Source: a virus
Strand: one strand, 5' to 3'
Length of the DNA stretch: 20,177 bases
IMG/VR virus record: IMGVR_UViG_3300025701_000075
Span: 1-20,177 of that record
Shown: piece by piece, positions 1 through 19,818 of the stretch
Layout: every line of letters begins with the position of its first letter
Numbering within the stretch: the stretch's first letter is position 1
Notes under the pieces: generated by a model
The model's input: only the letters and a program-made list of their open reading frames with translations
Database searches by the model: none
What the model was told of the DNA's origin: nothing
Program-made: the position numbers and the translations under genes

Positions 1-3000
1 CTGCAACTGCATCACTAGGTGTATATGTTGATTCTTCTGTATAAAATCCAACAAAATCTAGTTCTTCAATAAACAATTCACCAGTAACATCAAATACACC
101 GTTTACATTTTTAAGATAAACGACTGCACTGTCTCGACGAGTACTTACATATGCAACCTCTGCACTACCAGTATCTGTTGTTACATTAGATCCAACAACT
201 GGTAAAGTTACAAATGTTTCAACAAATAACACATGATCAATTTTTTCAACAATATTATGTTCTTGAGATATAAAATCTTTAGTAATTAACGGAATATTTC
301 CGTCGAATGGAATAAAATTATCAAGTGTAGGATACGCATAGCTACGCTGATTCCAAAATAGATTTAATGTATCACCAGCTTTAGTACCAATGTACATATC
401 TTTAGGAGCACGTACTAGTAAGTGACTTGTTGTATTATTTTCTAACCCCGGATCACCAGCTACTAAAAGATTTAATGTTGTACTATCACTGTCTGCTTGA
501 GCAGCGATATTTATATATGTATCAAATGTACTAAAAGGCTGATTGCCAATTTCTGGAAGTATTTCTCTATTTGCCTTCCATAGACTTTCTCTATAACGAA
601 CAATATCATTTTTAATGTAAGTGGCATTTGGCTGGAAATTAAAAGTTTCTTGTCCAGTATCTGCATCAGTCTTATATGCTAGTTTAGTTTTTACACTACT
701 TGCATTTGGTATGCCTACAACAAGGTATTCGCCATCAGGTGATACTGAAATACTTTTACCAAATTTAATATTATTGATATCAAATAGATCGCTATCTTCA
801 AAAATAAATTCTTGATCTAAAATTAAATTATTTTGTTCTTTAGTTCTTCTATAGTAAGAAACTTTACCATTTTCATCATCTGGTGCTGAAACAAAAACAT
901 TATTGTTATCTTGTGTTATAGCGACACTATCACTAAATTTTTGATCCGTACTATCATATTCTGAAGTATTAAAAATAGCCTGAGAATTTAAATATACAGG
1001 ATTATTTTCTAAAACAGCCCAATCTTTATTATAAGTGTCAATCCATAATTTTTGATTGTTGTATATATTTTGTTTTGTTACAGAGTTAATATCTGTAACA
1101 CTTTCAGCACGTATAGTTCTTAATGTAGATATTATATAACTTTCATTATCTTCAACTTCAAGATCAGTTATTTCGTTATTTAAAGGAACTCTAATTCTAA
1201 CAGTATTAAGATTAATACTATCAATTTCATACAATCCGTTAATATTATACAGTTGTGCTTCACGAACTCCGATATAATCCCCTACAGCAAAGTTTTCAAT
1301 TGCCCACTTATCTAAGGTTAGTTCAACTAACCTTAGTCCGTTTACAGCAACTTCAGTGATAAGGCTGTTTATACCAATAACATTAACTTTTGATCTTATT
1401 AACTGTTTTACAGTCCAAGATTTATTATCAGTCTCTGTTACCCATATAGTGTTTCCAAGACTGATTTGATTTGTGTCAACTAATGCAAGATCTAATTGAT
1501 TACTAACAATAAAATCAACATCACTTTCATTAACGTATCCCGAAGTTCTGATATACTCATTAGTTAAAGTTTTAGTTGGAAACGGAGCATGGTTATAATC
1601 TGCAGGTTTGTCAAATACTTCATTTGGAAGTATTCTGTAAATTTTATCAAAGTTAGTTGCAGGCAATGTGTTTACAAGTTCAACTGCTTGAGGCGATTCT
1701 TGCATTCTATCTTGTTGCAGGTTGTATTCAACCTGTTGCACATCGTCGACAGCACCATATCGCCCGACTTGAATTGCCCACTCTTCGTAGAACTCTAAAT
1801 TATCGGTAGTATTGCCTAGTGCATCAAACAATTTGGTAAACACATTCATAGTGCCTTTGTCTGCAATAGCACCACGGTAGAACTTAAACTGACTTACGTC
1901 ATCATTAATAATATTAGCAAGATACTGGCGTTTTTGATAACCTATTAAATGCTGTGCCATCTTTTGCTGTTCAACATCAAAACTGTCACTATCTAAATCA
2001 TAAAAATCAGTAAACTGCGTAACTCTGTAATCAAAGTTAGTCATTAACTGCGACTCAGGCTTTTCGCTAAGTCTATACCAAAAATTATCATTGAATGTTT
2101 GAGATCCTACAACATTTGATGTAGCTACATAATAATATTGTTTGTATTTTACAATATCACCAATATGGTAATCCTTCCAAGCAGCCCAATCAGTAAATGA
2201 TGCATCGTCGTATACAAATCCAGGAATATTTAAGCCGCCGTTCCAGCCGTCTGACCTATATCCGTTAACACGAATTCTTTCTTGTCTATAGCCAGTTGCA
2301 GGATTATATATAGTATCATTAAAATCAGTTGTATTATCTATCAATACAACATGTTCTTTTTGAACTAATGGCAATGCAACGTGATATAAACCCTCTTCAG
2401 TCCCTACTGTTTCGATACCAAAGCTATTTTGATCTCTTAGCAAACTATTAAATTCTGAATCTAAAAATAATCCATCTGCTTTAAAAATATTATATCCGTA
2501 AAAGTCGTCTTTGATATTATCAACTACATAATAATCTCTGTTGAATTCAATTAAGTTTGCAGCAGGCGATAACGCAATTAATGAATTTTGTGCCCACCCT
2601 TGTGTTGTCCAGAATAAAAACTGTTTTGCAGAAGTATTCCAATTTTCAACTTCGTTAGTACCTTCAATAACGTTTTCAAAACTAAATCCAATTTTTGATT
2701 GTCGTACACTATATCCTAATATAAAGTCAACAACTTCTTGTGCAGTATCAAAACGACTTCCGTATTGCAAACGTTTAACTGAAGTAGTGTCAAAGTTTTT
2801 CTTAAACTCTGCTGTTCTGCCGCCAGTAAGAGGCAATGCAGGAAGTTTAACAATATTGTCTGTGTCAAATGTTCTACTACTAGTAAACGAATCAATAACT
2901 CTGTAATAAGCATTGTTATGTAAAATTACTTCTCCACTTAGATAAGAAGTATTTGAATCCCACTGCACTACTTTTTCACTTATTCCGCCAACCGTTACTA

Positions 3001-6000
3001 TACTTAATGAAGACCCTTGGATTGGTCGATAGTATTCAAAATACGGTTTTTCTAAATTATATCCTCTAACAATGTATCCTAATTCTGAACGCTCTACAAC
3101 TATGCCACTATATATTGCTAATTCACTAGGACTACTTGTGTTTGAGAAAACTTGATAATTTTCTTGGGGGACAAAGATTCCGTCTTGTGTTAATGTCTGC
3201 GTAGGCGATCTACTATCAAGTATTAGATTAAACTTTTCTTTACTTGTAAATCCTGAGATTTTAATACCAATCTGGTTAGTAAGAGATCTTAAATCTGTAA
3301 CATATCCGTTATATACTGATAAAATATCACTTGCAACTAGATTATAAATGTAATTTACTAATCCTGCTGTATTAGTCCTAGTGTTTGATTTAACAGTATT
3401 TGGCAACTCTAGGTCTTTAAGAACTATAGGTTTATTAGTAGTTGTATCAACCCACTGATTTGCCAAGTTTTTATTAATTCTTGAAATATCAAAACCTAAG
3501 CCCATAGTTTTTGCAGGTTGGTTTAATAGCATTGTAGTTAGAATTGCAAAGGGATATTCAGAACTTCTACGCCATGCATTTTCAACAGGTGTATAATCAC
3601 CAAATTTGAAGTTGTTAGTTGCACTTCTTATGTTAAATTCTTTAGCATATCTGCTATCTAGAGGTGATAATAATTTGCCTGTGCTATCTACTGGAATAAA
3701 ATTAGTTAAACCAGGACGAGCATATTTAAGATCAATTCTTGTATTATCAGGATCTGCAATTCGACCTGCTTCAAGATCTCTCCAAAGTACTAGGTTGTCA
3801 CCAGTATACGGTGCTGGGCCATATATAGTGTTCCACCAAGACGGTTTAGTAGTCAATCCAAGCATTTCCCAAGGATGACTATGTGGGCGATCAGTATCAA
3901 ATGCTCTTACATACACACTTCTCCAAAATCCCGGATTTGCATTTCCGTCCGGCGACTTAGTTTCGCTATAGTTAAATGTCCAGTTATTAGTTCTGTCATA
4001 AAATGTATTGTCAGTGTAATTTGTATTATTTAAATTTTCTAACAACCATCTTTGGAATTGAGATAGTAATGTATTATCAATTTCTTCTTTTGTAAAATTA
4101 CTAGATCTAAATTCGCCGCCGATGAATTCGTTTACATCTAATCTGTCAGTTGAATATTCTGCTTTAATATTGTTAAATATTCTTTTTTCAAATTCTAATA
4201 ACAGTTCATCTCTAAAATCTTTATATGCTTTTATATAGCTGCCGTCGTGGCCTCTAATGAATGCAACGCCGATTGGATACTCGTCAATTTCAATATTGTC
4301 GTTTCCAGCTAACGTAGCGCCATCAGTAGGAACATAAAACAATTTATTCATACCTACAAAAGTATAAGATTTTGAAGCTGTGCCTGAGCCAGCTGCACTC
4401 TTCGAAGTATATACCGGATAAAACCAACCTCTGTTGCCTGTTGCTTCATCTTCGCCATATATTTTAAATGGTCCAGATATTTCAGGTTCAGAGGCTTGTA
4501 TAGTATCGTCGATAGTTAATTCAGGATAGTATTTCGGATACAATCCTAATTTACTCGGAGTTGGTGCAATAAAACTTCCGTCAGTATTGTTATACTCATG
4601 TATTTCAATTGTATCATTTTCAACTTGTCCGGCGTTGATTGAAACATAACCAGTTATATCAAAATTATAATCTTTGTTATATGTTAATTGTTTATTGTTT
4701 AAATAAACAAGAATACTTTTTGAACTTAAATCAGTTAAATTAAAATTATCAGTGATAGGATAATCACGAGTCCTTGCATCATAAACATTATATTCAATTT
4801 TATTAAATGCGCCTGTTGCAATCATATCTGAGAAATAAAACGGTTGTGATTGTAACTTATCACTATTGATTGTTTTTAATACAAGATCAACGTGCTGTTT
4901 AGTCGGGCCATCGTATCCTAATGTAGCAGCAGTATCTAAAAATATTTTCTTATATCTTGTATATTCCGTATTTGAATATTTTAATGCTTTTACAATATTA
5001 TAATTTTTATTTGTTACATGATATAACGGTAAATTAATAGGTCCACTATGCTTTACAAAGCGTTTTCCGTATTTGTCTAAATCTCCTAAATCTCTAAGAT
5101 TACTTTGTCCTAAATATTTTCCAGTATATCCTGGAATATCTTCCAACATACTATCAACATGGTCAATTACTTCACCAAGAGTAAACTGGCTAACATCATC
5201 ATTTAACGGATTGCGTTCTAAGTTGTACGGAAATTCATAATAGCCGTTAGAATTCTTTATAGTTTTAGAATTAGTTTTAATTTTAATAACATCATTTATT
5301 TTTAAAGGTGTATTAAAAATAATTACTGCATCGTTATTACTTGTGTCGATTGTATAATCAGTATTAATTAATTTTAGGTTATTATTAACAAATACAACTA
5401 CTTTTAGATCTACAACACTACTAGACTTATCATATACATCAATTACAAAATTATTAGTTTGAATATCTGTTGCAGAGTATTCTTTTATAACATATTGTTT
5501 ACTAATTGTAGGAGTACTACTAAACCCATTTACATATGAAAAGTTAGTAAGTGACGTGTATTTTTTTAAGTATCCGCTATCAATTTTTTGTGTGAATAAT
5601 TCTGTTTCTGTTTGATATGTAAATGTATCATTTAGTAAATTAAAATCAAATACAATATCGCCAGAATTTTCAATAGATTTATAACTTAATGCAAATCCTA
5701 ATTCAGCATCAACTGTACCTTCACCTTCGGCATAAGAAAATAACTTAGTTCCTTTAAATGTTGTTGAGCCATAATATGTTTCGTCACTGAAACTATTGCC
5801 ATTTACATCGCAAACTGCAAACATGGGCGGTTGATTGCGTGTTGTTTTTTCTTGCGCTTCTAGCCATTGATTTCTGTGGTAGTGATAACTTTTGCCTGCA
5901 TTTTTTACACCCTGTGTAACTAATACAGTTTCAAGATCAATTGGATTAGTATCATCAGTTTCTACTAAACTAATTTGTCTGTTATTTCCAATCTCGACAA

Positions 6001-7660
6001 ATTTTACTTGATAAATTTTACTATTTACTAGTGAATCTGTATCTGCTGTAAATAAGATACGCATATTGTCAGCTAAGTTAACGCCATCAATATTATATCC
6101 TAATTGTCCTTCGATGTCACTAAACACGTCAGTAGTAAATGTATCAATTAGGTCAACGTCTTGTTTAGCAATTGCACCAAAATTATCTAATTTTAACCCA
6201 GCTTCAAATTCAATAATAGGACGTTTGGCACGATTAGATTCATCAACATTTACTGGCAAGTTGTTAAATTCAAAACTTTTTATAATAGCATCTTTGTGAT
6301 GCCATCTATTATAACGACTCCAGGCATTTCTGTCTAAAGATGCTCTATTAATTACAATATAATCAGTTTCTGTTGCATAAGCACTTGCGTCACTAAATGG
6401 TAATGTATCAAAATTGTCACTATCAAAAGCAATACGCTTAGTGTCACTGTATGCTGCTGGGATAATTAAATCTTGATCTTTAATTAATTTAATTTTATCC
6501 CCTACACCTTCAACATACCAATCGTTAGTTTCATATTCAACAGGTAGTACATCTCCTTGGAATTTAATTTTCATTCCATTAGATAGTTCGACTCCATTTG
6601 CACTTAAATAAGTTTTCTTTCCTAATATTTCTTCAGCAACATTAAGGAATGCATTTTCTTCGATATCGTAAATTCTAAATTGACCACTTGTATCTACTGC
6701 ATTTTTACTAATGTAGAATAATCTATCAGGTGCATTAAATGGAATAGTAAATTCAATTGTACCTTTTTCAATGTATGCAACTGCTACTTCTTCGCCTTCT
6801 TCACCTAACTTACGAATACCATCTGGGTATAGTGTACTAACATTATCGTCTGCTGCAAATATTACACTGCCTCCGCTTGGCAAAATAATAAACTCACCTT
6901 GATCATATTCGTTACCATATAGAACAGCGTCAAATAATCCATCGCCTCTTAAACCTTCTGTTCCTGCTGTTAGAATAGCTGTGCCAGGAGTAAATGTTCT
7001 GCTGATAGCAATAGCCATTGGATGTCCAGGAGTGTCGATTTCAAAACGGTAAGTTTGTCCTCGATAAAGTTTTAGATTAGGATTGCGTGTTAAGCCATCA
7101 TTAAATACATATGCAACATTATCGCCTTGATCTTCAGTTGTAACAGTATATGTACTAACAACTTCTCTACTTTGTCCTCTTACAGGAATACTAATAGGAC
7201 CGTTTGGCATCCAGTAGTATTCACGGAAGTTTACAAATTTATCCCAATCAATGTTTGAGTTCCATGCATATGTTTCTTGCGAATTTAAACGACTATGATC
7301 TGCTGTGTTTGCACCAAAAACACCTAGCTGTCCGATATAATCATTATAATCTTTATAAAAAGTTACATTATCGTAGTTGTCTTTAATAACAGCAGCAGGT
7401 TCTAATTGATAATTAGTTCTATCTGTTGTTACATCTCCTACATAATTGTCTGTAGTTTTATACGCTTTAGCAGTTGTTCTGCCATAATAGCCATTAATTT
7501 TTTCTGCAACACCTGGCTGTATAAGTTGGTCAAGAGTACCTTGTAAAAACTTTTTGTTTGCTTGTGTTCTAAAAAACTTAGGTAAAAAATCACTCGCAGT
7601 AATTTTATTGTTTTGACCTGGAACAGGCAGTGCGCTTTCGTTTTGATCATTCTTAGCCAT
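1..7660 (-). CDS. Giant phage structural (baseplate/tail-associated) protein, 3' end outside window
   Basis: This frame starts at ATG 7660 and stays open to the left edge: at least 2553 codons. I read long stretches codon by codon and found no stop. The start overlaps the gp6 stop by one base (TAATG). GGAGG at 7673-7677, inside the last gp6 codons, is the likely ribosome site, so translation is probably coupled to gp6. The N-terminus (about residues 20-70, with FLPKFFRTQANKKFLQ and LDQLIQPG) resembles very large 'structural proteins' that follow gp6 in marine T4-like phages. About residues 190-214 carry LYRGQTYRFEIDTPGHP, a cupredoxin-like strand motif. Near the visible end, about residues 2239-2320, two FG-GAP/integrin-type blade motifs appear (FSDSVAITQ...VFVSAP and FGKSISVSPDGEYLVVGIP), suggesting a beta-propeller. 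Its position after gp6 matches gp7 in T4, but it is far longer than T4 gp7 (about 1030 residues), so equivalence is only positional. A wedge, tail-fibre attachment or host-contact role is inference. Confidence 0.9.
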   Translation of the reverse strand, partial: MAKNDQNESALPVPGQNNKITASDFLPKFFRTQANKKFLQGTLDQLIQPGVAEKINGYYGRTTAKAYKTTDNYVGDVTTDRTNYQLEPAAVIKDNYDNVTFYKDYNDYIGQLGVFGANTADHSRLNSQETYAWNSNIDWDKFVNFREYYWMPNGPISIPVRGQSREVVSTYTVTTEDQGDNVAYVFNDGLTRNPNLKLYRGQTYRFEIDTPGHPMAIAISRTFTPGTAILTAGTEGLRGDGLFDAVLYGNEYDQGEFIILPSGGSVIFAADDNVSTLYPDGIRKLGEEGEEVAVAYIEKGTIEFTIPFNAPDRLFYISKNAVDTSGQFRIYDIEENAFLNVAEEILGKKTYLSANGVELSNGMKIKFQGDVLPVEYETNDWYVEGVGDKIKLIKDQDLIIPAAYSDTKRIAFDSDNFDTLPFSDASAYATETDYIVINRASLDRNAWSRYNRWHHKDAIIKSFEFNNLPVNVDESNRAKRPIIEFEAGLKLDNFGAIAKQDVDLIDTFTTDVFSDIEGQLGYNIDGVNLADNMRILFTADTDSLVNSKIYQVKFVEIGNNRQISLVETDDTNPIDLETVLVTQGVKNAGKSYHYHRNQWLEAQEKTTRNQPPMFAVCDVNGNSFSDETYYGSTTFKGTKLFSYAEGEGTVDAELGFALSYKSIENSGDIVFDFNLLNDTFTYQTETELFTQKIDSGYLKKYTSLTNFSYVNGFSSTPTISKQYVIKEYSATDIQTNNFVIDVYDKSSSVVDLKVVVFVNNNLKLINTDYTIDTSNNDAVIIFNTPLKINDVIKIKTNSKTIKNSNGYYEFPYNLERNPLNDDVSQFTLGEVIDHVDSMLEDIPGYTGKYLGQSNLRDLGDLDKYGKRFVKHSGPINLPLYHVTNKNYNIVKALKYSNTEYTRYKKIFLDTAATLGYDGPTKQHVDLVLKTINSDKLQSQPFYFSDMIATGAFNKIEYNVYDARTRDYPITDNFNLTDLSSKSILVYLNNKQLTYNKDYNFDITGYVSINAGQVENDTIEIHEYNNTDGSFIAPTPSKLGLYPKYYPELTIDDTIQASEPEISGPFKIYGEDEATGNRGWFYPVYTSKSAAGSGTASKSYTFVGMNKLFYVPTDGATLAGNDNIEIDEYPIGVAFIRGHDGSYIKAYKDFRDELLLEFEKRIFNNIKAEYSTDRLDVNEFIGGEFRSSNFTKEEIDNTLLSQFQRWLLENLNNTNYTDNTFYDRTNNWTFNYSETKSPDGNANPGFWRSVYVRAFDTDRPHSHPWEMLGLTTKPSWWNTIYGPAPYTGDNLVLWRDLEAGRIADPDNTRIDLKYARPGLTNFIPVDSTGKLLSPLDSRYAKEFNIRSATNNFKFGDYTPVENAWRRSSEYPFAILTTMLLNQPAKTMGLGFDISRINKNLANQWVDTTTNKPIVLKDLELPNTVKSNTRTNTAGLVNYIYNLVASDILSVYNGYVTDLRSLTNQIGIKISGFTSKEKFNLILDSRSPTQTLTQDGIFVPQENYQVFSNTSSPSELAIYSGIVVERSELGYIVRGYNLEKPYFEYYRPIQGSSLSIVTVGGISEKVVQWDSNTSYLSGEVILHNNAYYRVIDSFTSSRTFDTDNIVKLPALPLTGGRTAEFKKNFDTTSVKRLQYGSRFDTAQEVVDFILGYSVRQSKIGFSFENVIEGTNEVENWNTSAKQFLFWTTQGWAQNSLIALSPAANLIEFNRDYYVVDNIKDDFYGYNIFKADGLFLDSEFNSLLRDQNSFGIETVGTEEGLYHVALPLVQKEHVVLIDNTTDFNDTIYNPATGYRQERIRVNGYRSDGWNGGLNIPGFVYDDASFTDWAAWKDYHIGDIVKYKQYYYVATSNVVGSQTFNDNFWYRLSEKPESQLMTNFDYRVTQFTDFYDLDSDSFDVEQQKMAQHLIGYQKRQYLANIINDDVSQFKFYRGAIADKGTMNVFTKLFDALGNTTDNLEFYEEWAIQVGRYGAVDDVQQVEYNLQQDRMQESPQAVELVNTLPATNFDKIYRILPNEVFDKPADYNHAPFPTKTLTNEYIRTSGYVNESDVDFIVSNQLDLALVDTNQISLGNTIWVTETDNKSWTVKQLIRSKVNVIGINSLITEVAVNGLRLVELTLDKWAIENFAVGDYIGVREAQLYNINGLYEIDSINLNTVRIRVPLNNEITDLEVEDNESYIISTLRTIRAESVTDINSVTKQNIYNNQKLWIDTYNKDWAVLENNPVYLNSQAIFNTSEYDSTDQKFSDSVAITQDNNNVFVSAPDDENGKVSYYRRTKEQNNLILDQEFIFEDSDLFDINNIKFGKSISVSPDGEYLVVGIPNASSVKTKLAYKTDADTGQETFNFQPNATYIKNDIVRYRESLWKANREILPEIGNQPFSTFDTYINIAAQADSDSTTLNLLVAGDPGLENNTTSHLLVRAPKDMYIGTKAGDTLNLFWNQRSYAYPTLDNFIPFDGNIPLITKDFISQEHNIVEKIDHVLFVETFVTLPVVGSNVTTDTGSAEVAYVSTRRDSAVVYLKNVNGVFDVTGELFIEELDFVGFYTEESTYTPSDAVA

Positions 7661-11214: not shown

Positions 11215-11655
11215 TTATGACTGAAGTAAGCCGTTTTCTTTGTCGAATTTAAAACGTAATTGGTCTGTTATACCGAACGGTAATACTGAAATTTTACAGT
11301 CAATTTGTATACCTTGTTCGTAAGTATCTATAACAATGTCTTCTGCACGTATTCTAGGATCGTAATTAATAATTTTAGTTACATCTTCAATAATTGCTTC
11401 TTGTACTTCAACTGTAAACGGTTCGTATAGGATATCCCAAATAATAGTGCCAAATGTAGGATCACTTAGTTTTTCAGTTTGACGTATGTGGAAATGATTG
11501 ATTAAATCTTGCTTAATTAATTCAAAGTCATAAACACTAAAACTTTTAGTATCTGCAACTGTTGAAAAACCTCTGTATTTTCTTCCAGTTGATGCTGTTT
11601 GATTTGCAGTGGTTACAGTTACACGTTTATATAAGTTTTTTTCTAATTGGCTCAT
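11215..11655 (-). CDS. gp25: Baseplate wedge protein gp25
   Basis: gp25 is the small wedge protein at the sheath-baseplate interface. It initiates sheath polymerisation and is related to TssE of type VI secretion and to GpW of phage P2. At 146 residues it is close to T4 gp25 (132). The core is visible at about residues 40-125: DLINHFHIRQTEKLSDPTFG, then IIWDILYEP, EAIIEDVTKIINYDPRI and a final strand ending LRFKFD. The TFGTIIWDILYEP segment and the YDPRIRAEDI turn are characteristic of the family. The roughly 35-residue N-terminal arm (KRVTVTTANQ...YRGFSTV) suits the extended arm that contacts neighbouring wedge proteins. It lies 13 bp after gp5, with AAGGGT upstream of the ATG, and is probably co-transcribed with gp5. 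Confidence 0.93.
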   Translation of the reverse strand: MSQLEKNLYKRVTVTTANQTASTGRKYRGFSTVADTKSFSVYDFELIKQDLINHFHIRQTEKLSDPTFGTIIWDILYEPFTVEVQEAIIEDVTKIINYDPRIRAEDIVIDTYEQGIQIDCKISVLPFGITDQLRFKFDKENGLLQS

Positions 11656-11668
11656 ACTATATTTACCC

Positions 11669-14146
11669 TTATTGTGCGCCAGTATGCGGGTTTACAGTTC
11701 GCGTAGCAGCACTATTATCTGTAGGTTGTGATACTGGCGGATTTGCTCGCGCGGCTGCAATTTCTTGTTCTAAACTTCTAAGAGCATCAGCTTCTTCGTT
11801 ATGAAATCTGTTAACAACACTTGCTCTAACTGCTGCTGTACTACTTCCGAAATATTTTGAACCATTGTTAGCACGCCTTTCAGCATATACAGCTCTTGTT
11901 AACGCTGCATCTGTTGGCTGTAATGCTGTTACTTCATTTGATGGATATCCTAATGCAGCAAGTGCTCTTTCAAATATATTACGTGCGCCGCCGGCGCCAT
12001 GTTGAATAGCTGTTGACCATACAACATTTTGTACTGTAACAGAACGCTGTGTTGCATCTAATCCTGTTCTATCTTTGATTCTTCTGTTTCCAGGAACAAA
12101 ATATGCTATTACTGCATATTCGTGCTGTGCTTCTGCACCTTCTGCTGTTCCCATAACTTGCGCCCATGCTGCTTTATATGCATCTGTTCCTGCTCTTGCA
12201 GCAGCAGCTCCGCCAGCTGCTTTTAATTGTGATTCTAAGTCTGGATGTGCTCTAGCTAACCATGCATGAAATTCATTCATAACACCTACATTTGCTGCAA
12301 GCTGATATGTTCCATAACTAAATCCGCCGGTGCTGTCCCATCCAATTGTTGCAGGATTACCCCTTGATTCATATCTTGCACTTAATGAACCTAATTCTGG
12401 ATCAAAGTTAAAGTCGCTGGTGTAATCTCCTGGAGGAATAGGAGTTTGTCCGTTTCCAGCGCCTCTTGAAATATTACCAGTATTAACATTGCCGCCGCTG
12501 CCTGTTACAAACGCACTAGATGTTCTTCCGCTTAGATTTTTAGCAAACGTATCAGGTGTAAGTATGCGATCAGCACTCGGTAACGCACCCGGATTATCTC
12601 TATCAGTTTGTATTTTTTTGAACGACATTGGATCTAAGTTTTCGTGGTGTGGCCAAGGTTCATGTTGCGGAGATCTTGTTAAAATACTTTCATATCCACT
12701 TATAACGCCGCCGGGTTTAACACGAGGTAATGTTTGTACACTTAATGGAGTAACTGGCCTTGCTGGGTTTGCAGTTGGTGCAGTTGGTCCATTCATATGT
12801 ACATATGTCGCTGTTTCTCTATGTTCTTTGCCACTGTTAATAAAAGTATTACTTCCGGCAGTAAGTCTGTTGTCTTGCCCTGTTTTAACGTGAAGACTTT
12901 TTCCAGTATCAATGTACTGAGCTTCTTTTACAGCAATGTGTTGATTCTTCATTACTGTAACTTTGCTGTCTTTTCCTACATGTAAATTAAAATTATTTTT
13001 AGATTCAATTTGTACTCTGCCAGTTTCGCCTTTGGTATTAGTACCAGCTGCTTTAATATTAACATTTCTACCGGCTTCCATGTTTATATCTCGGCCAGCA
13101 CTAAAGTTTAAATCATTTTCGGTCATGATACTAACACTATCCTGTGCATGAATATCAATTTTACCGTCACTAGTCATTTCTATCCAAGTAGTGCCTCTTG
13201 AATTACCTATGTAGATCAAATCTTCACTATTGTGCATTAGTATTTGATGACCAGTTCTAGTTCTAAAACGCATTAATTCGTTTTGAGGTATAGTCCTGTC
13301 GCCGCCCGGTTCATTAGCTCCTTTGTTTTTATAAACTGGAGGACCGTCTTCTGCGTGTGTTGCACGTACAAACCGCTCGTCACCGTCGTCCATTACAAAA
13401 CTACTGCCGCCTAGTCTATTAACAGGAGTATTAATCTTTCTTCCTCGAGTGCCGATTTCAGCAGTAGGTGCGCCGTCTCTTCGATCTTTGGGACCAGGTG
13501 TACTTACACCAAATACCATACTAGGAATTTCTCGTCTTGCACTAGTAGTTGTAGTTCCTCTAAATTCGTCTCCTAGTAATCCTTGAATTTCTAGCGTTTC
13601 TGAGAAGTCTTTATTGTAAGGCTTTGCAAATAATGTAGGATCAACTCTTGAACCACTTTCAATTGCTTTATTGTATTCACCGACTGGGAGTTTTCTTCCA
13701 CTCAAACTAGGAGGTGTTATTCCAGTTGTATTTTCTGTACTTGCTCTGCCGTCTGGCAACATAAAGTTCATATTATTTGCAGGAATACATCCGATCCAAA
13801 AACCGTGATTTGTATCACCTTCTGCAAATATTACAAGAACCTTAGTACCTACATCCGGCGGCACCATCCACATACCATATGATTTTTGTGTATGTTCGTA
13901 TCCGTCATTTGCTGTAACACCAGCATGCGGAGTAACTCCGTAAAAAGGAGACAAATACTGCACATTTAAAAGTTGTCCAGTGCGCTCAGGAGTTCCGCCG
14001 GAACTAGTATATCTCAATAGTTCAACAACAAGTCCGCCCATATATTTTGTGTCTAAATTATTAACCACAATTGCTTCATAAGGACCACTGTCTCTAAATC
14101 CAGTTGTTCTTTGATTTGTAGTTCTTGTATAATTTCCGTTTGCCAT
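11669..14146 (-). CDS. gp5: Baseplate hub/spike protein gp5 with C-terminal lysozyme-like domain
   Basis: gp5 trimers form the central spike below the tail tube, which pierces the envelope and locally cuts peptidoglycan. Three parts are visible in 825 residues. First is an N-terminal OB-fold like gp5/VgrG (about residues 25-130; YMGGLVVELLRY, GMWMVPPDVGTKVLVIFAEG, GFWIGCIP). Second is a beta-helix stalk (about 319-455) of short strands such as IDIHAQDSVSI, INMEAGRNVNIKA and VQIESKNNFNLHVG. Third, after a Pro/Gly/Ser-rich linker, is a lysozyme- or transglycosylase-like domain (about 585-790) opening with LSARYESRGNP and FSYGTYQLA; E593 in YESRG is the best candidate catalytic acid. In T4 the lysozyme lies between the OB-fold and the stalk, so the domain order differs here. 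The OB-fold and stalk are certain; the enzyme class is inferred. The gene follows the previous one by 3 bp (TAACATATG). Confidence 0.92.
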   Translation of the reverse strand: MANGNYTRTTNQRTTGFRDSGPYEAIVVNNLDTKYMGGLVVELLRYTSSGGTPERTGQLLNVQYLSPFYGVTPHAGVTANDGYEHTQKSYGMWMVPPDVGTKVLVIFAEGDTNHGFWIGCIPANNMNFMLPDGRASTENTTGITPPSLSGRKLPVGEYNKAIESGSRVDPTLFAKPYNKDFSETLEIQGLLGDEFRGTTTTSARREIPSMVFGVSTPGPKDRRDGAPTAEIGTRGRKINTPVNRLGGSSFVMDDGDERFVRATHAEDGPPVYKNKGANEPGGDRTIPQNELMRFRTRTGHQILMHNSEDLIYIGNSRGTTWIEMTSDGKIDIHAQDSVSIMTENDLNFSAGRDINMEAGRNVNIKAAGTNTKGETGRVQIESKNNFNLHVGKDSKVTVMKNQHIAVKEAQYIDTGKSLHVKTGQDNRLTAGSNTFINSGKEHRETATYVHMNGPTAPTANPARPVTPLSVQTLPRVKPGGVISGYESILTRSPQHEPWPHHENLDPMSFKKIQTDRDNPGALPSADRILTPDTFAKNLSGRTSSAFVTGSGGNVNTGNISRGAGNGQTPIPPGDYTSDFNFDPELGSLSARYESRGNPATIGWDSTGGFSYGTYQLAANVGVMNEFHAWLARAHPDLESQLKAAGGAAAARAGTDAYKAAWAQVMGTAEGAEAQHEYAVIAYFVPGNRRIKDRTGLDATQRSVTVQNVVWSTAIQHGAGGARNIFERALAALGYPSNEVTALQPTDAALTRAVYAERRANNGSKYFGSSTAAVRASVVNRFHNEEADALRSLEQEIAAARANPPVSQPTDNSAATRTVNPHTGAQ

Positions 14147-14149
14147 ATG

Positions 14150-15532
14150 TTAGCCTGCGCCTCCACTTAGTGCTGCTGCTTCTCTTCGTTGTCTCAATAA
14201 ACTAGGTCCGCCAGTTGTTGTTCCTACAGGAATTCCGCCGTCAATCGGACTTTTAACTGTCGGTGTCGATTCTGGTACGGAAGTTTGTCCAGAAGCATTT
14301 CTACTTGGTCCATTGTTCGGAGTATATACCTTTTTGCCTGAATTAAAATCATATCTATCAAACCCGGGTGTTATTGGCTCGTATATATATACACTCGGCG
14401 GGCGAGCTGCCGGCGTTGCTGAATTTGTAGGAGTTGACGGAGACTGTGTAACAGTAGATGGAGCCGTTGCAGTACTGGCCGCATCAGCTTGTCGTTGTGC
14501 TACTTCTGCTGCTCCGTTTCCTCTTCCGCCTGTTACACTAGGTATAACCGATGCAGGTGCAGCAGCAGCAGCTCTTGCTTGTCTTAAAATTGCATCATCA
14601 TATGGAACACTTGCAGGAGGAGTTGCACCTGATCCCGATGTTCCAGAAGAAGCGGGAGCATTATTTGGTAAACAAGGAGCTGTTCCGGTTTGCACATCAT
14701 CTGCTGTGCCACTAGCAACAACAGAATTTGCCTGTCGTTGAGCTACTTCTGCTGCTCCGTTTCCTCTGCCGCCAGCTACTGTAGCCGAAGGAGTATTACG
14801 CTGATCTGCTCCGCGTGGATCTGTAGCGTCAGGATTACTATATGCAGGTGTTGCACCTTTGCTGTCAAGTCTACTACTAACTGATGATGTTGTAGGTGTT
14901 GCACCTTTGCTGTCAAATCTGCTAGTAGGTGTTCCTACTGTTCCTGGTGTAGTTGTACTTTTTGTAACTCCGCCTACTACGTTTGGTTTTACAATTGTAG
15001 TTGTTTCAACAGTTGTACCAGTTGTTGCGCCGGTTGTTGCTTCTGTTATTTCTTCAGGTCTACTGTAATCAAGCATCGGATCAGGAAGATAGACAGGCAC
15101 ACCTTGATATGTGCTTACTTGTACACTACCTCGAGGTTTAATACCTTCTTTTATACCTTGTTCTTTCCATTCTACCATTTTTTCGTATAATGGAGTAAAA
15201 TCAATATCAGGAGTTGCACCTGGGTTATCTAACAGGATCATCGGATCAACTGCAAATCTTTCACCTACCCAATAATGTGGTTGATTTGGATATAATAAAT
15301 CGCTCCATCCATCGTTTTCAATTACTACAACAATTTGATAACTTCTGGGATATTTCATTATAATTTCTTCACCGTAGTCAAACATATCATCGATATTTTG
15401 AAATATTTGACGAGTGCGTGTAGGCAAATCTGGTCTGCGCCACGGACCTTTTGCATTTACAGGAACAGCATTAGATTGCTCTAATTTTCCTGCTGCTTCT
15501 TCTGGTAAACCGCTATCGTCATCTTCTGCCAT
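14150..15532 (-). CDS. Low-complexity repeat protein of the baseplate operon, unknown function
   Basis: I do not recognise this family. Residues 1-155 look folded: IFQNIDDMFDYGEEIIMKYP, YQIVVVIENDGWSDLLYPNQ, and a strand VPVYLPDPML near residue 145. Residues 155-460 are Thr/Ala/Pro/Ser/Gly-rich and probably disordered. Two kinds of in-frame repeat are present: SRFDSKGATP/SRLDSKGATP, and GGRGNGAAEVAQRQA occurring twice, about 80 residues apart. A pair of cysteines is not obvious. It sits between the hub-like 1014-residue protein and gp5, separated by 1 bp and 3 bp, so it is expressed with them and is probably a virion component. YLPDP also occurs near the end of the gp53-like protein, which raises the weak possibility of a shared LysM-like strand. 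A linker, adaptor or extended scaffold at the hub is inference only. Confidence 0.85.
   Translation of the reverse strand: MAEDDDSGLPEEAAGKLEQSNAVPVNAKGPWRRPDLPTRTRQIFQNIDDMFDYGEEIIMKYPRSYQIVVVIENDGWSDLLYPNQPHYWVGERFAVDPMILLDNPGATPDIDFTPLYEKMVEWKEQGIKEGIKPRGSVQVSTYQGVPVYLPDPMLDYSRPEEITEATTGATTGTTVETTTIVKPNVVGGVTKSTTTPGTVGTPTSRFDSKGATPTTSSVSSRLDSKGATPAYSNPDATDPRGADQRNTPSATVAGGRGNGAAEVAQRQANSVVASGTADDVQTGTAPCLPNNAPASSGTSGSGATPPASVPYDDAILRQARAAAAAPASVIPSVTGGRGNGAAEVAQRQADAASTATAPSTVTQSPSTPTNSATPAARPPSVYIYEPITPGFDRYDFNSGKKVYTPNNGPSRNASGQTSVPESTPTVKSPIDGGIPVGTTTGGPSLLRQRREAAALSGGAG
14490..14530 (-). repeat. 41-bp direct repeat, copy 1 (encodes GGRGNGAAEVAQRQ)
   Basis: This copy matches 14733-14773 at 39 of 41 positions, in the same frame and strand, inside the 460-residue protein. 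Both differences are synonymous at the protein level within GGRGNGAAEVAQRQ, consistent with an internal duplication under protein-level constraint. Confidence 0.9.
14733..14773 (-). repeat. 41-bp direct repeat, copy 2 (encodes GGRGNGAAEVAQRQ)
   Basis: Second copy of the element at 14490-14530, offset by 243 bp (81 codons), so the reading frame is preserved. The sequence between the copies is unrelated Ser/Ala/Pro-rich coding. Confidence 0.9.
14846..14868 (-). repeat. 23-bp direct repeat, copy 1 (encodes LDSKGATP)
   Basis: This 23-bp stretch is identical to 14894-14916, 48 bp (16 codons) away, and encodes the conserved DSKGATP of the short repeat in the 460-residue protein. Confidence 0.9.
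14894..14916 (-). repeat. 23-bp direct repeat, copy 2 (encodes FDSKGATP)
   Basis: Identical to 14846-14868 and in the same reading frame. With the first copy it gives the protein pattern SR(F/L)DSKGATP repeated with a 16-residue period. Confidence 0.9.
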
Positions 15533-18579: not shown

Positions 18580-18879
18580 TTAGAAACCTAATGTATTACG
18601 TAATGCTGACGGATCTGGTAGATATATTTCTGTTCCTGCTACAAAATCAAAAATAGGATCCTTTAATGTATCCATATTTCTTTGAGCAAAAACCCACCAT
18701 AATTCTTTTTTACCATAAGTGATATATGCAAGTAGATCAGGACGGTATGTAAATTCTGTTGTAATTGTAAAAAGTATATCTTCTCTATTAATAGGAACCG
18801 GTCTTGGAGATAATATATCTAAATATCCGCTTCTGTTAATAGGTGTACGTGCATACGGGCTTAAACTATTTTTTTCCAT
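18580..18879 (-). CDS. gp53: Baseplate wedge protein gp53-like
   Basis: gp53 joins the wedge to the hub late in wedge assembly and carries a LysM-like fold. This 99-residue protein is about half the length of T4 gp53 (196), and short forms are familiar in marine T4-like phages. The visible pattern is YLDILSPRPVPINREDILFT, then FTYRPDLLAYITYGKKELWW with a conserved Trp pair, and a C-terminal LysM-like strand (DPIFDFVAGTEIYLPDP). ATG 18879 overlaps the stop of the gp48-like gene (TAATG). GGAGG at 18890-18894, 10 nt upstream, supports this start and suggests coupled translation. The identity rests on recall of the family pattern and on gene order. Confidence 0.78.
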   Translation of the reverse strand: MEKNSLSPYARTPINRSGYLDILSPRPVPINREDILFTITTEFTYRPDLLAYITYGKKELWWVFAQRNMDTLKDPIFDFVAGTEIYLPDPSALRNTLGF

Positions 18880-19792: not shown

Positions 19793-19818
19793 ATATATAA
19801 CATAACCGGAGATGTCAA
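19790..19818 (-). promoter_or_regulatory. Possible mirror-image sigma-70 promoter towards the baseplate operon
   Basis: On the minus strand TTGACA (19818-19813), a 17-nt spacer and TATATT (19795-19790, five of six matches) form a second promoter-like pair. Its -10 overlaps that of the plus-strand promoter. The surrounding AT-richness makes the -10 match cheap; the exact -35 and spacing are the reasons for listing it. Confidence 0.3.
19808..19811 (+). promoter_or_regulatory. Ribosome binding site deciding the gp55-like start
   Basis: GGAG directly abuts ATG 19812, which is too close for initiation, but is 6 nt before ATG 19818, the optimal distance. The second ATG (protein start MRPKNYL) is therefore preferred over the first (MSMRPKNYL). 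Confidence 0.75.

Follow-up and report, generated by a model that had tools for sequence, protein, structure and literature searches.

A giant reading frame directly after gp6 in an uncultured marine myovirus encodes a probable baseplate wedge protein with inserted beta-domains

The window analysed here is a complete IMG/VR record of 20,177 bases, itself a fragment, in which the gene for the baseplate wedge protein gp6 is followed by a reading frame, P0001, that has no stop across 2,553 codons and is still open at the contig edge at window base 2 (Table 1). The question raised by this locus is what a protein of such length does next to gp6. We consider it probable that P0001 is the 5' half of a baseplate wedge protein of ~5,100 residues from an uncultured marine jumbo-type T4-like myovirus, standing in the place of T4 gp7 (gp25-gp6-X). 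Whatever is said beyond placing a baseplate protein of the virion at the position of gp7, we infer.

Results

P0001 is one continuous coding sequence

Because the window is the entire public record, the truncation of P0001 corresponds to an assembly edge. The probability of meeting no stop in 2,553 codons, computed from base composition at GC 0.35, is ~10^-82. In TAATG the gp6 stop and the start codon of P0001 overlap, with a GGAGG-type site upstream, so that the placement directly after gp6 given in the initial annotation is correct. Compared with its closest relative L036 (90% amino acid identity), P0001 has a pN/pS of 0.12 overall and of 0.06-0.23 in each of ten segments, indicating that its entire length is translated and constrained. 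One IMG/VR scan returned 77 loci, and in 38 of them, among which there may be near-identical copies, the giant ORF was complete at both ends, with 4,539-5,444 aa in a single chain ending at a natural stop. The complete giant of L036 has 5,134 aa, from which it follows that the window holds about the first half.

The extreme length of P0001 and the fragmentary nature of the window could point to an assembly artefact or a chimeric ORF. Against this stand the 38 contigs with complete ORFs, the recurrence of the same layout at 40-90% identity and the low pN/pS in all segments; the relatives already refute this reading, and we give it practically no credence. The uninterrupted frame of more than 2550 codons described at the outset is thus confirmed. 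By comparison with its relatives, P0001 is one continuous selected frame with a backbone homologous to virion proteins at the same jumbo-phage locus. No relative was found in a cellular or proviral host by a genome-contig scan, in IMG/VR when scanned with the PA5oct core, or in the PDB when the giant ORF was searched by phmmer.

P0001 lies in a baseplate gene cluster

Judged by sequence, the gene set around the giant is a T4-type baseplate cluster. The order on the minus strand is P0008 (virion), gp53-like, P0006 (virion), P0005 (low complexity), gp5-like hub, gp25, gp6 and the giant. Divergent from this series, at 19812, is a gene for a gp55-like late sigma factor. In L036 the giant is followed by a ~200-aa protein (phrog_11259) and then by a protein with a phage collar domain, giving an overall order of gp53 - gp5 - gp25 - gp6 - giant - ~200 aa - collar/fibre, the last two being read in L036. 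The window gp6 is closest to those of jumbo phages such as Atu_ph07, with 36.5% identity to the Atu_ph07 wedge protein over 96%. In this phage group gp6 is also enlarged, at 1165 aa here vs 660 aa in T4. The gp5-like spike ends in a T6SS VgrG3-like domain, an enzyme-type ending that is unusual for a T4-type spike. The GC content of the window peaks locally (up to 0.455) at a gene at 14150-15532 (-), whose 460-aa product has internal repeats, abounds in Thr, Ser, Pro and Ala, and gave no family match.

Table 1. Positions of the giant reading frame, its domains and the neighbouring baseplate genes in the window
Feature	Position	Strand	Basis or remark
gp53-like baseplate wedge subunit	18580..18879	minus	phrog_7145 E 3e-22
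gp5-like hub/spike protein with VgrG3-like C-terminal domain	11669..14146	minus	phrog_13211, PF21277 E 1.6e-25
gp25 baseplate wedge protein	11215..11655	minus	PF04965 GPW_gp25 above cut-off
gp6 baseplate wedge protein, 1165 aa	7660..11157	minus	phrog_10646 E 4e-296 and phrog_219
Giant ORF P0001	2..7660	minus	2553 codons visible, ATG start, 3' end missing
N-terminal backbone block, residues 1-160	7181..7660	minus	33% identity in cultured jumbo phages
Cupredoxin-like insert, residues 161-345	6626..7180	minus	AF2 and Foldseek; absent from cultured jumbo homologues
Backbone block, residues 346-820	5201..6625	minus	conserved in cultured jumbo phages; AF2 pLDDT ~88 for 490-600
Strongly conserved backbone block, residues 1131-1560	2981..4270	minus	part of best phrog_10938 stretch
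CBM_5_12-like motif, residues 1566-1594	2879..2965	minus	PF02839 E 7.5e-9, above cut-off
Second CBM_5_12-like insert, residues 1816-1880	2021..2215	minus	PF02839 sub-threshold in window, E 0.26
Proposed gp7-type core, residues 1881-2000	1661..2020	minus	99% coverage in cultured jumbo phages
KGT motif, residues 1935-1937	1850..1858	minus	near-invariant in marine and jumbo giants
FG-GAP blade 1, residues 2237-2285	806..952	minus	blade motif
FG-GAP blade 2, residues 2296-2330	671..775	minus	blade motif
Start of ~565-residue insert within propeller, residues 2341-2553	2..640	minus	nearly absent in L055, compact propeller there

The backbone is shared with virion proteins of cultured jumbo phages

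The giant matches phrog_10938 with a whole-protein E of 7e-224, the best stretch being 1133-1820, and tblastn returned 57 phage records, mostly of jumbo phages, at 23-29% identity. Homologues in phrog_10938 include Atu_ph07 gp180 (4449 aa), PA5oct gp355 (3857 aa), a protein of Vibrio 2.275.O (3771 aa) and CBB gp236 (3340 aa), and in all four phages the homologue lies directly after gp6; SCTP-2, where the gp6 homologue does not adjoin the giant, is the exception. The PA5oct gp355 record is annotated as detected by ESI-MS/MS, and CBB_236 was found in virions by mass spectrometry with 21 unique peptides and 7.72% coverage (PMC5259590). By homology to the PA5oct and CBB proteins a virion role of the giant is strongly indicated, and it is putative for the window phage. 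The PHROGs label for phrog_10938, "head and packaging: virion structural protein", counts against assignment to the wedge.

L036 was compared block by block with the proteins of 19 marine relatives and with five homologues from cultured jumbo phages. Conserved blocks were found at L036 residues 1-160, 346-820, 1131-1560, 1601-1815, 1881-2000, 3371-3600 and 3801-4060, with coverage of 0.79-0.99 and identity of 0.28-0.33 in the cultured homologues. For residues 161-345, 1816-1880 and a large part of 2001-3370, the cultured phages mostly have no counterpart or none that could be aligned. These alignments show that lineage-specific segments, predicted to be beta-domains, are inserted between conserved backbone blocks.

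The inserts include cupredoxin-like, CBM5/12-like and FG-GAP domains

An AF2 model of residues 1-820, built from 28 sequences, has a mean pLDDT of 60, with values of ~80 over most of 155-400 and a low stretch at 223-274. Its Foldseek matches in the PDB are mostly cupredoxins (CueO, NirK, laccases, rusticyanin and plastocyanin; best E 3e-3), and with modest confidence we predict that residues 161-345 adopt a cupredoxin fold, in agreement with the cupredoxin-like motif originally noted near the N-terminus. At the positions of the copper ligands (His, Cys, His, Met/Gln) the alignment of relatives has no conserved Cys or His, and copper binding is therefore unlikely. For the second of the two CBM_5_12-like segments, the PF02839 match is stronger in relatives, and the cultured homologues have 15 residues there.

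Seven blade motifs were located in L036, at residues 2237-2285, 2296-2330, 2911-2960, 3096-3148, 3153-3203, 3210-3234 and 3294-3339; only blades 1-2 fall in the window, blades 3-7 (L036 residues 2911-3339) lying beyond it. PF14312 (FG-GAP_2) was found in 27 of 28 relatives at E<=1, with a best value of 2.5e-15 and matches above the Pfam cut-off in several, but it remains below threshold in the window itself because only two blades are present. The FG-GAP blades reported near the visible end are thus upheld through the relatives, although only two of the seven are within the window. Pfam found no FG-GAP match in five cultured homologues. The blade profile matches integrin alpha-IIb and WD40 propellers in the PDB. 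The relative L055 has almost none of the insert between blades 2 and 3, so core and propeller could be folded together in its protein. Propeller strands in the L055 AF2 model mostly have pLDDT 75-94, and the model matches 438 PDB entries at E<=0.001, the top-ranked being beta-propellers that include alpha5beta1 integrin. A closed seven-blade propeller fold is thus predicted, as modelled on L055 rather than on the window protein. Segment-wise structure prediction yielded both domains, the propeller (in L055) and the cupredoxin-like fold. In BFVD the best match, at 34% identity, comes from an uncultured member of the Caudovirales, which indicates that unannotated relatives are already in UniProt.

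The core of the giant has a suggestive similarity to gp7

A T4 tail has six copies of gp7, a monomer that, along with gp8, touches the gp6 dimer and whose domain A swivels upon the baseplate switch (PMC3004832). Giants directly after gp6 are found in the cyanophages S-SM1 (6,180 aa), S-CAM9 (3,884 aa), S-SRM01 (3,895 aa) and Syn1 (3,274 aa), the lengths being computed from coordinates. SSM1_102 of S-SM1 (GU071094 55821-74363; L149:2822-21364) carries PF23786, YHYH and Laminin-G domains; this 6180-aa gene is annotated as "hypothetical protein". The gene that immediately follows gp6 in HTVC008M, 055, has a match to PF23786 (Baseplate_wedge). A profile built from proteins of the 055 type aligns to T4 gp7 with E 3.5e-8 and a probability of 95%, and by this alignment the genes that follow gp6 in cyanophages and pelagiphages are of gp7 type. 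Despite its PF23786 match and its link to T4 gp7, 055 (L084:33435-36485, 1016 aa) is annotated as "head closure Hc2", a label that probably stems from shared glycine-rich beta-repeats.

The consensus of the proposed core at residues 1881-2000 reads FDY..DFYDLDSD..HLIGYQ.R.YL..I..D..Q..FY.G.I..KGT....KLF..L. Two marine relatives have KGS in place of KGT, while T4 has KGI/KGT/KGV and cyanophages KGT. When a combined gp7 core profile was compared by hhalign with 67 sub-windows of the giant, the KGT core was the best (score 27.1, E 0.001, probability 21%), the next independent one scoring 19.0, and this best stretch registers on the motif connecting T4 gp7 with the cyanophage giants. Across tests the hhalign probability of the giant core vs gp7 was 8-21%. 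The match at the KGT core is suggestive of gp7 homology but does not prove it.

By hmmscan, neither the window protein's core nor those of the five cultured homologues matched the Pfam models for Gp7 and Baseplate_wedge (PF23786). Alignment of the giant by hhalign with T4 gp6-gp11 gave no match, and with HTVC008M gp25, gp6, 055, gp8, VrlC, gp5, gp48 and others only the beta-repeat regions of 055 matched. The gp7-like core region gave a low-confidence AF2 model (pLDDT 30-47). A weak Gp7_5th Pfam match in one member (E 0.053) was not recovered in 15 members scanned in part or whole and was dropped. VrlC has been suggested for pelagimyophages that lack gp7 (PMC7029224); this identity was rejected for the giant, which has no hhalign match to HTVC008M VrlC.

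Discussion

The initial annotation had proposed that a wedge part and a host-contact part are combined in one chain. The wedge part is borne out by position and backbone homology and, weakly, by similarity to the gp7 core; a host-contact role may be proposed from the type of the inserted domains. By analogy with T4, the gp6 dimer would be held by a helical core of gp7 type near residue 1935 to build the wedge, with the backbone forming the wedge periphery. The inserted domains would project outward as covalently attached lectin- or adhesin-like modules and could touch host surface polymers or neighbouring fibres. Six copies of the giant would be present per tail, and some separate peripheral proteins would be replaced. 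In a more far-reaching version, which we regard as doubtful, a gp7-type scaffold would have taken in a seven-blade integrin-like propeller and a cupredoxin-like domain to serve as surfaces for host contact, giving a single-chain wedge with built-in receptor-binding modules, six copies of which would form an adhesin ring covalently fixed to the contraction trigger and independent of the tail fibres.

The inserts of a structural protein at the wedge periphery might instead be purely architectural, bracing wedge proteins or fibres with no host contact. Such a role would suit a cupredoxin-like domain without conserved copper ligands, the separate collar-domain fibre gene just downstream of the giant in L036, and cultured relatives that function without the inserts. 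However, FG-GAP propellers and CBM5/12 motifs typically serve in adhesion and in contact with carbohydrates, and in cyanophages the giants at this locus have Laminin-G/ConA-like and YHYH domains in their stead, which suggests replaceable surface-contact modules; we hold the architectural role to be quite possible but short of probable. It is rather unlikely, in our view, that the giant is a baseplate or tail protein after gp6 that is not equivalent to gp7, its backbone being an unrelated jumbo-phage invention in the same position. The order gp25-gp6-giant is conserved in several jumbo phages and in cyanophages with gp7-related giants, and the KGT core is the best match of the gp7 core profile along the giant, even though significant direct matches to T4 gp7-gp11 or to the HTVC008M wedge proteins were not obtained and the giant of SCTP-2 is not beside gp6.

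The alternating conserved blocks and inserts also resemble concatenated proteins, and several T4 wedge proteins are without an identified counterpart in the 20-kb fragment, as if the giant were a polyprotein, translated as one chain and cut into separate baseplate proteins during assembly. Yet no signature of T4 gp8, gp9, gp10 or gp11 was found along a complete relative, and neither a cleavage site nor a protease was identified; the polyprotein reading, for which there is no supporting signature, was set aside as improbable.

Two groups of large marine and jumbo myoviruses repeatedly have giants directly after gp6, whose annotation goes no further than "virion structural" or "hypothetical". 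Viewing these giants as a conserved scaffold that carries exchangeable domains of surface type would explain their function and make them candidate host-range determinants in uncultured marine phages. It would also make it testable whether recognition can be fused to the wedge rather than left to detachable fibres.

Comparison with known systems places the window protein among several partial likenesses. It resembles T4 gp7 in gene order (gp25-gp6-X) and, weakly, at the KG(T/I)...LF core; in contrast, T4 gp7 has 1032 aa, and its Gp7_helical, 5th and 6th Pfam domains were not detected in the giant. Like the jumbo phrog_10938 giants, to whose backbone its own is homologous with 25-29% identity across the aligned first half, it stands directly after gp6 and is a single chain, but the cultured members are without the cupredoxin-like insert and FG-GAP propeller and reach 3.3-4.4 kaa vs ~5.1 kaa. 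The propeller is like that of integrin-alpha in its seven FG-GAP-like blades (TM-score by target up to 0.59), and unlike it in an identity of ~12% and, in most relatives, the insert of ~565 residues that separates blades 2 and 3. Genes following gp6 in cyanophages and pelagiphages agree in position and often in giant size, S-SM1 having surface-type inserts (YHYH, Laminin-G) around a gp7-type core, whereas they carry other inserted domains and have no significant homology to the giant outside the KGT core motif. A literature search, which is no proof of absence, found no paper discussing the giant wedge and surface-domain layout. Given precedents of the S-SM1 type, neither the giant size nor a layout of wedge plus surface domain is new, and the giant is a fresh version of a recurrent, little-discussed theme of giants after gp6.
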